57,056 nt of DNA from Salinivibrio proteolyticus (lineage in GTDB: Bacteria > Pseudomonadota > Gammaproteobacteria > Enterobacterales > Vibrionaceae), in assembly GCF_001996165.1 (NCBI RefSeq), contig NZ_MUFP01000003.1:117532-174587 (forward strand), in the 5' to 3' direction. The notes under the pieces were generated by a model, which saw only the letters and a list, made by a program, of their open reading frames with translations, was not told the origin of the DNA and did no database searches. Below are positions 28,535-46,051 of this stretch, piece by piece (the first letter of the stretch is position 1; each line of letters begins with the position of its first letter). The translations under genes and the position numbers were made by a program.

Positions 28535-28623
28535 TGCGCGCCTTAGAAAATGTTTGTTAACGACGTGTGGTGCCCGGCTTAGGATCGGGAGAGCGACACG
28601 GCCTTTAATATGAGGTTATCCCT

Positions 28624-40679: not shown

Positions 40680-40716
40680 ACCCTAAAAGCTGAAAAAAAG
40701 TTTCAGCTTTTAGGGT
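40680..40716. repeat. Perfect 16-bp inverted repeat in the ppc-argC intergenic region
   Basis: The arms ACCCTAAAAGCTGAAA (40680-40695) and TTTCAGCTTTTAGGGT (40701-40716) flank a 5-base AAAAG loop. No T-run follows on either strand, so it is not an ordinary terminator. It occupies the position where Vibrio carries argE. Confidence 0.85.
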
Positions 40717-40860
40717 TGCCAGCCCTCCGAGGGTTTCTCCGCGCCCGCTATATCGCGACTTTCTCGTGAATGGCGACAGGGTGATTTGCATGATTAGATA
40801 GAATTATTGCTCTTTTATGAATGAATATACATAAAAAGTGGCTTTTTACGCTTTTAGGAC

Positions 40861-40889
40861 TTGACGTCCAAACGGGAATGCGATAAAAA
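40861..40889 (+). promoter_or_regulatory. Probable sigma-70 promoter of the arg operon
   Basis: TTGACG at 40861-40866 and TAAAAA at 40884-40889 are spaced by 17 bases. The -10 element overlaps the first ARG box, so bound ArgR would block RNA polymerase. Transcription would start near 40896. Confidence 0.6.
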
Positions 40890-40923
40890 ATAACCATTCA
40901 CTATTTATGAATAAAAATATCCT
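40885..40923 (+). promoter_or_regulatory. Tandem ARG boxes (ArgR operator) upstream of argC
   Basis: Two 18-bp sites fit the ArgR consensus wnTnAATwwwwATTnAnw: 40885-40902 (ATTCACT right half intact, left half partial) and 40906-40923 (TATGAAT left half intact, right half partial). They are separated by exactly 3 bp, the spacing used by hexameric ArgR. A further single-box-like sequence lies at 40816-40833. Confidence 0.75.
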
Positions 40924-40936
40924 TGAGAGTTGACCC

Positions 40937-40987
40937 ATGATGCCACTCGCCACCAAATACAACGCCCTTTCTGCTCGACGACGCTAG
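40937..40987 (+). CDS. Putative arginine leader peptide upstream of argC
   Basis: A 16-codon frame reads MMPLATKYNALSARRR and then TAG. GAGAG lies 7 bases before the first ATG, a usable ribosome site, and the predicted arg transcript starts about 40 bases upstream. The last three codons before the stop are CGA, CGA, CGC, all arginine; CGA is slowly decoded in many gammaproteobacteria and consecutive CGA codons stall ribosomes. Two hairpins follow before argC. The arrangement resembles amino-acid leader peptides (his, trp, leu), where pausing at codons for the pathway product controls the genes behind. No similarity to a known peptide is claimed; the function is inferred from codons and position. 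Confidence 0.55.
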   Translation: MMPLATKYNALSARRR

Positions 40988-40995
40988 CCTGCCTT

Positions 40996-41040
40996 GCGTG
41001 GCTATTGGCTACGCCCTCGATACTCTGCTGCACCGCAGCA
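40996..41040 (+). promoter_or_regulatory. Leader hairpins between the arginine peptide and argC (putative attenuator)
   Basis: Hairpin 1 (40996-41014) pairs GCGTGGC with GCTACGC (one G-T pair) around a 5-base loop. Hairpin 2 (41026-41040) pairs TGCTGC with GCAGCA around 3 bases. TAGCC at 40985-40989, which includes the leader stop codon, could instead pair with GGCTA at 41007-41011 and break hairpin 1. No T-run follows, so any control would be Rho-dependent, translational or by mRNA stability, not a classical intrinsic attenuator. Confidence 0.4.
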
Positions 41041-41070
41041 CACCGTAAACACCCATAAAGAGAGACACCC

Positions 41071-42081
41071 ATGACCCTTAACACCATTATTGTCGGTGCC
41101 AGTGGCTACACAGGAGCCGAGCTTGTCGCCCTTGTCCATCGCCATCCGCAACTGCACTTGGCCGGTTTATATGTCTCGGCAGGCAGTGAAGACGCTAATC
41201 GTCCTGTGAGCGCGTTGCACGGTCAACTGCGTGGCGTGGTGGATATGCCACTGATGCCTTTGACCTCGCCACAGGATTTGGCCAAGCAAGCCGATGTGGT
41301 GTTTTTAGCCACTGCGCATGCGGTTAGTCATGAATTGGCGCCGATTTTTCTGGCTCAAGGTTGCGTGGTGTTTGATTTGTCGGGGGCGTATCGGGTCAAT
41401 CAAGCGGATTTTTATCCTACCAATTACGGCTTTTCGCACCAGTCACCGGCATGGCTGGCGCAAGCCGTGTATGGCTTGGCGGAGTGGCAACAGGAAGCAT
41501 TATCTGCAGCGCAGCTGGTAGCCGTGCCGGGATGTTACCCGACCGCCAGCCAATTAGCGCTCAAACCTGTGCTGGATGCAGGCTTGTTGGATAAACAAAT
41601 GTGGCCGGTGATCAATGCCACCAGTGGCGTAACGGGCGCGGGGCGAAAAGCGAGCCTGACCAATAGTTTTTGCGAAGTGAGCCTGCATGCCTACGGGGTG
41701 TTTTCTCACCGTCATCAGCCAGAGATTGCCGCACACCTAGATACGCCGGTGATTTTCACCCCACACCTTGGCAGTTACAAACGCGGCATTCTTGCCACCA
41801 TTACCGCCAAATTAGCGCCAGGTGCTAGTGAGGCCGAGGTGGGGCAGGTACTGAACCAGGCTTATCAAGATGCGCCGCTGGTACGGGTACTTCCTGCCGG
41901 TGAGGTGGCCAAGCTGCAAGCGGTGCAACATACCGGCTTTTGCGATATTGGCTATCAGGCCGCGCATGGGCATCTGATCCTTACCAGTGCGATCGATAAC
42001 TTACTTAAAGGCGCGGCCAGCCAAGCCGTGCAGTGTTTAAACCTTAAGTTTGGCTTTGCCGAAACCACAGCGATTGTCTAG
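41071..42081 (+). CDS. argC: N-acetyl-gamma-glutamyl-phosphate reductase
   Basis: This NADPH enzyme is the third step of arginine synthesis. The 336 residues begin [21 protein letters not shown] with the dinucleotide motif. The catalytic Cys is in [15 protein letters not shown], followed by the conserved [11 protein letters not shown] and [11 protein letters not shown]. It is the first gene of argC-argB-argG-argH, with 9-54 bases between genes. AGAGAG upstream is the ribosome site. ARG boxes and a possible arginine leader precede it. Confidence 0.96.
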
Positions 42082-42090
42082 GAGAAACGG

Positions 42091-42870
42091 ATGAAAACGC
42101 CATTAGTGATTAAATTAGGCGGCGCAGCACTGAGCTGCAGCGAGACCCTCGCCAAGGTTTTCGGCGCGATGAACACCTATCGCAGTGAGGCTGAGCGCCC
42201 GCTAGTGCTGGTGCACGGTGGCGGCTACTTGGTTGATCAACTGCTGAAAAAACTCGCCCTCACCAGTGTGAAAAAACAAGGCTTGCGGGTCACGCCAGCC
42301 GACCAGATTGATTATGTCACCGGTGCTTTAGCTGGCACGGCCAATAAGCTGCTGTTAGCTGAGGCGCGTAAGGCGAAGATTAAAAGCTGTGGCTTGAGCT
42401 TGGCCGATGGCGGCTTGTGTCAGGTCAGCCAACTGGACCCCGAGCTTGGGGCAGTGGGGGAAGCCAGCGCCGGTGATCCGAGTCTGCTGCAAGCGGTACT
42501 GGCCGCGGATTGTGTTCCTATTATTAGCTCGATTGGCATCAGTGACCAAGGTGAGCTGATGAACGTCAATGCCGACCAAGCGGCGGTAGCGGTGGCAACC
42601 ACTCTCGGGGCGGAGCTGGTGTTGCTGTCGGATGTCAGCGGCGTGTTAGACGGCAAAGGGCACTTGCTGCCTTGCCTCACCGAGTTAGATGCGCAGCACT
42701 TAATGGAAAAAGGCGTGATCACCGATGGCATGGTGGTCAAGGTCAACGCGGCGTTTGCCGCTGCCCGTGAACTGGGTAAACCAGTGGAGATTGCCACCTG
42801 GCGTTACCCAGAAAAACTCACGCAATTATTCGATGGCCAGCAAATCGGCACCCGGTTTAGCGCCAGTTAA
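42091..42870 (+). CDS. argB: Acetylglutamate kinase
   Basis: ArgB phosphorylates N-acetylglutamate in arginine synthesis. The 259 residues (E. coli 257-258) carry [11 protein letters not shown] at the N-terminus, [48 protein letters not shown] and [14 protein letters not shown]. These are the amino-acid kinase family nucleotide and substrate motifs. The short length without an N-terminal extension suggests the non-allosteric, E. coli-like dimer. It lies 9 bases after argC. Confidence 0.96.
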
Positions 42871-42924
42871 TTAGACGTATAACGACGCGACGACACCGTC
42901 GATTTAGGATTTAAGGAGAGCAAG

Positions 42925-44136
42925 ATGAGCAAGGTAAATAAAGTTGTACTGGCCTATTCGGGTGGATTGGATACCTCGGCCATCATTCCGTGGCTAAAAG
43001 AGAACTATGACTGTGAGGTGGTGGCCTTTGTTGCCGACGTCGGTCAAGGCGAACAAGAGCTCGAAGGCATTGAGCAAAAAGCGCTCGCTTCCGGGGCATC
43101 CCAGTGTTTTATCGCCGATCTGAAACACGAAATGGTGGCGGAGTATATTTACCCCAGCCTGAAAACCGGTGCGGTGTATGAGGGCAAATACCTTCTAGGT
43201 ACCTCGATGGCGCGTCCGATCATTGCCAAAGCGCAGGTCGAGTGCGCCCTAGAGGTTGGAGCGGATGCACTTTGCCACGGCTGTACCGGCAAGGGGAACG
43301 ATCAAGTCCGTTTTGAGAGCACCTTCTCCGCGTTGGCGCCGCAACTGAAAGTGATTGCGCCGTGGCGGGAGTGGGATCTTACCAGTCGTGAAGCCTTGCT
43401 CGATTACTTGGCCGCCCGTGACATTCCTTGTACGGCGAGCCTTGAGAAAATTTATTCACGTGATGCCAATGCTTGGCACGTTTCGACCGAAGGCGGTGTG
43501 CTGGAAGATACTTGGACCGCGGCCAACCAAGATTGCTGGGTATGGACAGTGGCACCGGAAGAGGCGCCCAATACGCCTGAGTTTGTCACCTTGGGAGTAC
43601 AAAGCGGAGAGGTGGTCTCGGTCGATGGTAAGTCCATGTCGCCTTATGACGTGCTGACGCTGCTGAACGACAAAGGCGCCCAGCATGGCGTGGGACGGAT
43701 TGATATTGTTGAGAACCGTTTGGTGGGGATGAAATCCCGCGGCTGTTATGAAACCCCAGGTGGCACCATCATCATGGAAGCGCTGCGTGGTGTTGAGCAA
43801 TTGGTGCTGGATAAAGAGAGTTATCAGTTCCGTGAGGAGCTCGGTTTAAAAGCGTCTCACCTGATTTATGATGGTCGTTGGTTTACCCCGCTTTGCCAGT
43901 CCATTCTTGCCGCGGCCAATTCTCTTGCCGCGCCGGTATCGGGCGAGGTGGTGGTCAAGCTCTATAAAGGGCAAGCGACTGTGATCCAAAAGCGTTCAAC
44001 CAATAGCCTGTACTCGGAAGACTTTGCCACCTTTGGTGATGATGATGTCTACGATCACAGCCATGCCGAAGGTTTTATCCGTTTGTATTCGCTGTCGAGC
44101 CGGATTCGGACGCTGAACAAACAAAAACAATCCTAA
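42925..44136 (+). CDS. argG: Argininosuccinate synthase
   Basis: ArgG condenses citrulline and aspartate with ATP. The 403-residue product is the shorter bacterial type: [18 protein letters not shown] (P-loop), [32 protein letters not shown], and [14 protein letters not shown]. It is in the arg operon between argB and argH, with AAGGAG upstream. It resembles the type in Vibrio and many other bacteria, not the longer E. coli form (about 447 residues). Confidence 0.96.
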
Positions 44137-44170
44137 TTAAAATGCATCGTGAGCAGTAAGGAGAGACAGC

Positions 44171-46051
44171 ATGGCATTATGGGGCGGACGCTTTAGTCAG
44201 GCAGCAGACAAACGGTTTCAAGCGTTTAACGATTCACTGCGCTTTGACTATCGCCTAGCAGAGCAAGACATTGTGGGCTCCATTGCTTGGTCCAAAGCCT
44301 TGCGTTCGGTGGGCGTGCTGAGTGATAACGAGCAACAGCAATTGGAGCTCGCGCTCAATGAGCTCAAGCTGTCGGTGATGGAAAACCCAAAGCAAATCTT
44401 ACGCTCAGAGGCTGAAGACATTCACAGCTGGGTCGAGCAGCAACTGATCGACAAAGTCGGGGATTTGGGCAAAAAGCTGCACACCGGACGCTCGCGTAAC
44501 GATCAGGTCGCTACGGATCTCAAGCTCTGGTGTCGCCAACAAGGCCAGCAAATCTTGCTGTCTCTCGACAAGCTTCAGCAGCAGCTGGTGGATGTGGCCA
44601 GCCAACACCATGATACCGTGCTGCCCGGCTATACCCACTTGCAGCGTGCGCAGCCAGTGACCTTTGCCCATTGGTGTTTGGCCTATCTGGAGATGTTTGA
44701 GCGCGACACCACCCGCTTACAAGATGCGCTTAATCGTCTTGATACCTGTCCGTTAGGATCCGGCGCGCTGGCGGGCACGGCGTACCCGATTGATCGCGAT
44801 GCCTTGGCGCAACAACTGGGCTTTGAACGGGCCACCCGTAATAGCCTTGACTCAGTCTCAGACCGTGATCATGTGATGGAGATGCTGTCTGCGGCGTCGA
44901 TATCAATGCTGCATTTATCACGGATGGCCGAAGATATGATCTTCTATAACTCGGGCGAATCCGGGTTTATCGAGCTGGCCGATACGGTGACGTCAGGCTC
45001 CTCGCTGATGCCACAAAAGAAAAACCCCGATGCGCTAGAGCTTATCCGCGGTAAAACCGGCCGCGTCTATGGCACCTTGTCGGCGATGATGATGACGGTG
45101 AAAGCCTTGCCACTGGCCTATAACAAGGATATGCAAGAAGATAAGGAAGGGCTCTTCGATGCCATGGACACTTGGCATGATTGCTTGGATATGGCCGCCT
45201 TGTGTTTTGAAGGTATCACCATTCACAAAGATAAAACCTTGCAGGCGGCGCAGCAAGGTCATGCCAACGCCACCGAGCTCGCGGATTATTTGGTGAGCAA
45301 AGGGATCCCGTTCCGTGAAGCACACCATATTGTGGGCGTGGCGGTGGTATCCGCCATTGAGCAAGGTTGTGCATTAGAAGCGCTGCCGCTTGCCACCTTG
45401 CAGCAATTCTCACCAGTGATTGAAGACGATGTGTATGCGATGCTCACGATTGAATCCTGCTTGGCCCAACGTCGGGCGCTGGGTGGGGTGGCGCCCGAGC
45501 AGGTCAGCTTTGCCATTCAAGAGGCGCAAAAGCGTTTAGATAAGCGCTTTACCCCCAAAGTCACGGTGCGCTCGGCAAGGCTCACTGACCTCGATACCAT
45601 CGAAGGCATGGTGGTGTATTGGGCAAAATTGGGGGAGAACTTACCTCGTGATCGCCATGAATTGGTGCGTAATATCGGCCTATTTGCGGTATCCGAGCAT
45701 CAAGGCGATCTCACCGGCTGCGGATCGCTGTATATTTACGACTCAGGACTTGCAGAAATCCGCTCCTTAGGGGTTGAAGCAGGCTGGCAGCGCCAAGGTC
45801 ACGGTACCGCGCTGATGATGCACTTGATTAAAAAAGCCAAGCAAATGGCGATTGAGCAAGTCTTTGTCCTCACCCGAGTGCCCGAGTTTTTCACTCAATT
45901 AGGCTTTACCCCGGTGTCGAAATCGCAACTGCCTGAGAAAGTGATGAAAGATTGTGAAATCTGTCCGCGCTTTCACGCCTGTGACGAAGTGGCACTGACC
46001 TATAACATTGCCGGGCCAGCCACGATTTCGACCTTCTCTACGCTGGAGTAG
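44171..46051 (+). CDS. argH: Argininosuccinate lyase fused to an N-acetylglutamate synthase-like GNAT domain
   Basis: The 626-residue fusion has an argininosuccinate lyase part (about 1-455: [47 protein letters not shown], signature [19 protein letters not shown]). The C-terminal GNAT acetyltransferase domain (about 460-620) contains [16 protein letters not shown], the acetyl-CoA loop [28 protein letters not shown], and [12 protein letters not shown] typical of the short ArgA. Such ArgH(A) fusions are known in Vibrio, Moritella and relatives. The C-terminal part would make N-acetylglutamate, the first step, so this operon encodes the pathway's start and end but not argE, argD or argF. Confidence 0.94.

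Follow-up and report, generated by a model that had tools for sequence, protein, structure and literature searches.

The argCBGH(A) operon of Salinivibrio proteolyticus is preceded by a putative arginine leader peptide, and from its sequence and that of its counterparts we conclude that this leader very probably adds ribosome-mediated attenuation by charged tRNA-Arg to the control exerted by ArgR. In such a mechanism, transcription would begin upstream of a small open reading frame (ORF) that ends in the codons CGA CGA CGC. With ample charged tRNA-Arg, the ribosome would clear these codons, reach the adjacent stop and depart, and many transcripts would terminate before argC or early within it. 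Under arginine shortage, the ribosome would stall on the CGA pair, where it would alter pairing in the RNA just downstream and shield that RNA, and polymerase would continue into argC. Comparison of sequences shows that the ORF is conserved together with its position, Arg run and CGA pair, as are hairpins past the stop within the genus. From this we infer that the leader is translated and in which direction the response runs.

The leader ORF and its surroundings

The DNA analyzed here (the window) is a stretch of 57,056 nucleotides in which all features of the leader and the operon lie on the + strand. The leader ORF (40937..40987) has 16 codons, reads ATG ATG CCA CTC GCC ACC AAA TAC AAC GCC CTT TCT GCT CGA CGA CGC TAG and encodes MMPLATKYNALSARRR. 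Its ATG at 40937 lies 7 nt downstream of a Shine-Dalgarno-like GAGAG (40925..40929), and 83 nt separate its stop from the ATG of argC at 41071. An earlier note on this DNA had described the same frame, and we read it at the same coordinates. The ORF is kept without indels in all eight species of the genus of the window (g1), and ORFs of the same kind occur in other genera and families. No change is seen among the eight species in the start, the stretch TCGACGACGCTAGCCTGC, the regulatory codons CGA CGA CGC (40976..40984) or the stop, while the middle codons vary; in the Shine-Dalgarno-like element AGAG is invariant and the first G differs in one species. The first ATG is likewise invariant and the second is ACG or ATA in two species, thus identifying 40937 as the start.

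The earlier note had proposed that this operon carries a second, ribosome-based arginine sensor and that an alignment of argC upstream regions would bear on it. Such an alignment clearly retains the frame and its Arg codons; the genus has kept the start, the Arg run and the stop, and all three recur in several families. Conservation of these parts while the middle of the peptide drifts supports the proposal. The third-position drift that the note expected at the Arg codons did not appear, as the first two stay CGA CGA and the codon itself is conserved.

Upstream of the leader is a promoter-like element (40861..40889), judged against the usual consensus. It consists of TTGACG (40861), a 17-nt spacer and TAAAAA (40884), the latter a weak -10; in the eight-species alignment the first hexamer is altered or cut by the edge in two species and one species has a deletion in the A-run. 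Two ARG-box-like 18-mers are also present, judged by the usual ARG-box consensus and 3-nt spacing. The first (40885..40902) is invariant in the eight species save for one deleted A, and the second (40906..40923; TATGAATAAAAATATCCT) is invariant over its first 15 nt and varies over its last 3. The plausible promoter and ARG boxes of the earlier note can therefore both be read and the ARG-box part is nearly invariant, but a simple promoter scan of the window does not list the promoter at 40861..40889. Since the ARG-box part of this region is nearly invariant in the genus, a transcript that includes the leader ORF is expected.

The genes downstream are, judging from their sequences, argC, argB, argG and argH(A). 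The first gene of the operon, argC (41071..42081), would encode N-acetyl-gamma-glutamyl-phosphate reductase, and the remaining genes occupy 42091..46051. The last of these (44171-46051, 626 aa) is an argH fused to an acetyltransferase-like domain, a fusion already described for marine gammaproteobacteria (PMC1382215). The upstream neighbor of the operon is a divergent ppc. Between the divergent ppc and the argC promoter is a perfect inverted repeat of 15 bp around a 5-nt loop (40681-40715; CCCTAAAAGCTGAAA ... TTTCAGCTTTTAGGG), which resembles a terminator stem yet lies upstream of both ppc and argC. Rfam covariance models gave no match up to an E value of 5 in the region 40800-41120. Elsewhere in the window, positions 28564-28616 match the Rfam L31-Gammaproteobacteria ribosomal protein leader (RF03157) with 55.7 bits.

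An argR gene is encoded in all eight genomes tested, which comprise seven with the leader, that of the window (G000) among them, and one Vibrio without it. The genome of the window additionally has two ornithine-carbamoyltransferase genes above the cut-off, on contigs C34 and C48, and a second, weaker ArgR-family match (C34:9078) adjoins one of them, which is suggestive of a separate arginine-related locus.

Distribution and codon choice of the leader

Upstream regions were collected for 230 argC loci, of which 217 were grouped and 13 ungrouped. A fixed test, which asked for an ATG ORF of 8-26 codons with RRR within its last seven residues and no more than 250 nt from argC, was positive at 83 of the 217 grouped loci, where dinucleotide shuffles predict 0.66; these counts are of genomes rather than independent events and include duplicates such as L100/L200 and L105/L217. 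Positives comprise 8/8 loci of g1, 37/37 of the Photobacterium-like g8, 14/14 of g3 and 3/7 of other genera of the family, which also includes g10 and g12. Outside these groups the test was positive at 5/13 loci of the Aeromonas-like f25, 3/4 of f13, 7/8 of the Psychrobiaceae-like f17, 1/3 of f6, 3/3 of Oceanisphaera/Zobellella and 2/2 of Ferrimonas. No positives occurred among 20 Vibrio-type loci (one of them a Vibrionaceae MAG), 5 of Aliivibrio, 42 of named enterics and relatives and 3 of Pasteurellaceae, nor in f2 (2 loci), f3 (5), f7 (7), f10 (4), f11 (2), f12 (3), f19 (6), f21 (5), f27 (6) and a mixed set of six further families (8).

The g8 and g3 loci in this test are those with the better argC matches. 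The remainder, together with one g13 genome, were examined later without shuffles, and a leader was found in 15 of these 17 genomes (14/14 in g8, 0/2 in g3 and 1/1 in g13). Thus, all 51 g8 genomes and 14 of 16 g3 genomes have the leader, which is absent from the g3 genomes L333 and L335. The g13 leader, MDFCFTARIFTYRRRLS, is intact and stands before an argC (G019:C19:52390-53394) that matches as four overlapping pieces in different frames, perhaps owing to frameshifts or sequencing errors.

The word CGACGA occurs on the sense strand of 107 of the 230 upstream regions and the antisense word in 6; in 102 regions CGACGA is in frame within a short ATG ORF. This looser in-frame test adds the peptides MLLFRRR (L223, f7) and MNRFSWFRRDSI (L229, f2), one in f11 (L027) and the Aeromonas peptides MFCHLIYNRRHTPA. 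A six-codon leader in Pseudoalteromonas (L107), MKIMRR followed by a stop, lies about 119 to 98 nt before the start of the argC match and may be this sensor in its shortest form. Another 20 Vibrio loci, with at least one species in common with the first sample, contained no such leader by a looser test. Three Vibrio-type candidates were rejected: CGACGA in L301 and L314 is on the argE side, upstream of a promoter-like TTGACAG, and an RR frame in L313 is without CGACGA and overlaps the TTGACAG hexamer. Outside the order, none of the 26 loci long enough to score among the 28 best has CGACGA; two RR frames found there (L278, L299) were set aside, both being without it.

This survey contradicts the view that the leader is a chance ORF in a conserved non-coding leader. 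The ORF is short and the eight members of the genus are closely related, as that view would have it, but peptides of differing sequence and similar ending occur in several families at far above the expected number, and we regard chance as extremely improbable. Between genera, no conservation is seen in the peptide before the Arg run; among g8 leaders, identity to the leader of the Photobacterium frigidiphilum locus L095 is seen. ORF lengths differ by whole codons in few members (34 of 15 codons and 4 of 14 in g8; 13 of 15 and 1 of 16 in g3), while the spacing from the stop to the downstream helix in g8 and g3 varies by single bases, which speaks for a maintained reading frame. Leaders are found both with ppc and with argE upstream, so that a tie to the loss of a divergent argE was discarded.

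The Arg run is composed largely of one codon. Among 243 Arg codons in leader runs, counted over 78 distinct ORFs with L156, L180, L181, L229 and L027 left out beforehand, there are 177 CGA, 50 CGC, 12 CGT, 2 CGG, 1 AGA and 1 AGG; in seven neighboring genes of the window CGA accounts for 7 of 159 Arg codons. Two of the ORFs left out, L229 and L027, carry in-frame CGACGA. The count includes L065, L080 and L221, all excluded from the later sets of 97 leaders; L065 and L080 are without CGACGA and are probably chance ORFs, and the AGA and AGG codons both come from L065. Theory holds that sensitive attenuators require a particular choice among synonymous codons (PMC1183508), and in the Salmonella his leader Arg pairs that contain CGA strongly de-attenuate, as do AGA and AGG (PMC4046918).

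The de-attenuation of the his leader by CGA pairs occurs without starvation, a result that, like the C-rich RNA downstream of the leader, would also suit a constitutive roadblock or insulator. Here slow CGA codons would hold the ribosome and block premature Rho termination with no sensing of arginine. This seems unlikely, as the leader was found at the head of the arginine operon and at none of the argF-type or carA loci, a pattern drawn from a survey confined to Arg runs. CGACGA precedes none of 19 ornithine-carbamoyltransferase (argF-type) or 15 carA loci in 15 genomes; 4 of the 19 loci lie inside the argC operon. A loose RR filter returned frames at 6 of the 19 argF-type and 2 of the 15 carA loci, with one RRR (L231, inside the upstream gene), and these were judged to be chance.

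Arrest by the nascent peptide in the manner of TnaC or SpeFL would likewise leave a ribosome stalled where the ORF ends, with the peptide in the tunnel sensing free arginine or ornithine. The Arg run is at the extreme end of the ORF in many leaders and SpeFL provides a precedent for ornithine (PMC7815308), but the strong codon bias points to decoding by tRNA. Moreover, the peptides before the Arg run are diverse between genera and even within g8 (MNQASLTKTYS, MNQATIHNLNS, MDKFSTPLLQ and MNQIYTSAFIS), and two leaders of merely 6-7 codons are short for a tunnel sensor. We therefore consider such arrest quite improbable.

RNA structure and the output step

Two hairpins that the earlier note had placed after the leader were read at 40996..41014 (hairpin 1, GCGTGGC/GCTACGC, which starts 9 nt past the leader stop) and at 41026..41040 (hairpin 2, TGCTGC/GCAGCA). 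The same note's alternative pairing of the strand that holds the stop was also recovered: TAGCC (40985..40989) pairs with GGCTA in hairpin 1 (41007-41011) in the ribosome-free minimum-energy fold, as an alternative to that hairpin, and is also able to pair with GGCTA at 41000-41004. In the eight species, 98.2% of the cells of hairpin 1 are paired, with one two-sided change (U-A to C-G) and one mismatch, both in the same species; for hairpin 2 the figure is 95.8%, with one two-sided change (G-C to A-U) and two mismatches of the outer pair. Both double changes come from one species. Support for the g1 hairpins is modest because 7 of 500 shuffles match these counts and a control slid by two columns (+2) scores higher on covariation, at 44% paired. 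A ribosome at the stop should hinder the folding of hairpin 1, but at the first CGA it should leave that hairpin unhindered. This position matches the arrangement that has been proposed for orf34, with a hairpin downstream of its stop.

The RNA structures are not the same in all clades. Across 36 distinct g8 leaders, the first codons of the ORF and the strand past the stop are joined in a helix with standard pairs in 98.9% of cells. Fifteen cells are changed on both sides (A-U to G-C in 14 sequences and G-C to A-U in one), and the double changes in columns 9 and 12 fall on third positions and are silent. Of 500 shuffles, none reaches the helix's paired percentage, its double-changed cells or its covariation score, and 14 attain its count of double-changed pairs; slid by +1 column, the covariation score is 0.131 versus 0.138, at 38% paired. 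This helix across the ORF is not general even in g8, being present in 4 of the 14 g8 genomes added later and missing from the other 10 (out of 51) and from g1. The ten genomes without it (L322, L325-L332 and L334) are a sub-clade that has kept the Arg leader. All 14 later g8 genomes, read from their folds and sequences, have a local hairpin past the stop, for example AGGTGC/GTGCCT, and a second one, GCTG/CAGC. In the sub-clade and a few other g8 species, T-rich sequence (several with TTTTCT or similar) follows the local hairpin; this hairpin could still form with a ribosome waiting at the Arg codons, which would be the wrong direction for a terminator. In Aeromonas, whose first CGA precedes the stop by six codons, the sequences hint at alternative pairings in succession, GCCCCT/AGGGGC and then AAGGGG/CCCCTT.

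The family most informative on the output step is f17. Here a hairpin followed by TTTTC or TTTTTT has the Arg codons and the stop as its 5' arm. In six of the eight members (L162, L100, L201, L202, L203 and L216) this terminator has a dG of -13.2 to -21.4 and a z of -4.0 to -6.3, values from test segments that ended at the stem, a choice that favors low z; the hairpins of L199 (z -1.8) and L105 (z -0.9) are weak. A ribosome on the f17 Arg codons excludes the terminator hairpin, so that arginine shortage would lead to read-through, a direction fixed without recourse to physiology. Over all leaders, a terminator-like site after the stop was found for 14 of 97 versus 3.4 expected, scattered over clades with six in g8. 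One leader that ends in RRR (L207, f6) is followed, 12 nt after its stop, by a 12-bp terminator-like hairpin and then TTCTTTCT.

In contrast, no intrinsic terminator was found before argC in the genus of the window, and no T-run follows the leader in the window, as the earlier note had remarked. A general scan for simple intrinsic terminators lists one weak site, which lies inside argC. The output in this genus would thus be Rho-dependent or structural, and the earlier note had named a translational or a Rho-dependent mechanism. The Rho-dependent half of that proposal fits a C-rich, G-poor stretch (40988..41070; C 0.37, G 0.20), a possible region of Rho loading and termination, without amounting to proof. 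After the stop, C/G fractions are 0.38/0.20 in g1, 0.29/0.18 in g8, 0.32/0.22 in f25, 0.26/0.21 in g3 and 0.18/0.15 in f17, as against 0.11/0.16 in Vibrio, 0.15/0.20 in Aliivibrio and 0.20/0.23 in enterics over the 100 nt before leaderless argC genes, a contrast that is confounded because the leaderless stretches hold promoter sequence and come from different genomes. Rho-dependent termination in the C-rich stretch past the stop is, tentatively, the likeliest candidate for the output in the genus of the window.

The translational half fared less well. In the style of ermC, a stalled ribosome would expose an argC ribosome-binding site that is otherwise paired with leader codons. The ribosome-free fold of the window does pair CTTTCT (40967-40972) with AGAGAG of the argC Shine-Dalgarno sequence, and AGAGAG is released when the Arg codons are blocked; the mean unpaired score of this element in g1 rises from 0.59 to 0.71. 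However, two of the eight g1 species are unchanged, and a ribosome at the stop gives a nearly equal 0.69, so that the effect would not report arginine. For 32 g8, 12 g3, 9 f25 and 7 f17 leaders the mean fails to rise or moves only from 0.48 to 0.52. Masking of the argC Shine-Dalgarno sequence is thus not conserved across leaders and was rejected as a general mechanism, which counts against the simple translational form; we consider translational attenuation improbable.

Returning to attenuation at the level of transcription, it is conceivable, though somewhat doubtful, that one sensor, an in-frame CGA-CGA near the leader stop, is common to many marine gammaproteobacterial families and has differing outputs. 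In f17 the ribosome would sit on the 5' arm of the terminator with no separate antiterminator, and elsewhere hairpins past the stop would be used, probably with Rho. CGA would have been chosen as the poorest codon of the inosine-bearing tRNA-Arg, thereby gauging the charging of that tRNA. The parts of the attenuation model that are specific to CGA and to Rho are weakened by Salmonella orf34, where rare and frequent Arg codons are equally effective and translation through to the stop protects from Rho (PMC6386406).

Relation to known systems

Like the his, trp, leu, ilv, thr and phe attenuators, the argC leader places a short ORF with clustered codons for the product between the promoter and the operon, and hairpins come after this ORF. 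It is distinguished from the his/trp/leu type by its specificity for arginine and by a near-invariant CGA-CGA close to the stop. Additionally, the intrinsic terminator of that type is shared by six of the eight f17 members but was not found in most clades, including the genus of the window. ArgR controls transcription at the level of DNA in response to free arginine, and accounts of gammaproteobacterial arginine synthesis usually place it under ArgR alone, which was also the premise of the earlier note. Repression by ArgR at ARG boxes would act on the same operon in response to the same signal, as an ARG-box-like pair and an argR gene are both present, while the leader would read tRNA charging after initiation. 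The arginine attenuator peptide of fungi (arg-2/CPA1) is likewise a leader peptide on an arginine-synthesis gene, where arginine causes the nascent peptide to arrest in a eukaryotic setting; we claim no sequence relation to it.

A further bacterial parallel is orf34/SpeFL, the leader of speF in Salmonella and E. coli, which also has consecutive Arg codons in a leader ORF and for which a hairpin just past the stop is proposed to form with the ribosome waiting at the Arg codons, with Rho involved (PMC6386406). It differs in its length of 34 codons, in its control of ornithine decarboxylase and in a conserved core, HIRRT*HIMM (DUF2618). The argC leaders are shorter and stand before arginine-synthesis genes rather than speF, and this core is absent from their peptides as read by eye. 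In Pseudomonas aeruginosa, carA is reported to have a leader peptide and attenuation linked to pyrimidines (PMC4997734). Within the open literature searched, we recognized no earlier description of a leader peptide for arginine on any bacterial operon of arg biosynthesis; the accessible portions of a survey of premature terminators (PMC2965389) and of a survey of Shewanella cis-regulatory RNAs (PMC2659441) name none. By its anatomy the leader appears to be a ribosome-mediated attenuator, and what appears to be new, among the operons that we found described, is its use for arginine, a regulatory codon that is nearly fixed and the fact that most members have no recognizable intrinsic terminator.

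With the leader present in several families, many gammaproteobacteria would read the charging of tRNA-Arg at this operon as well. This raises the testable questions of why Vibrio and enterics manage without the leader and why CGA is used rather than a frequent Arg codon. The leaders also lend themselves to comparison as a natural series, with a single sensor that may be coupled to different modes of termination.
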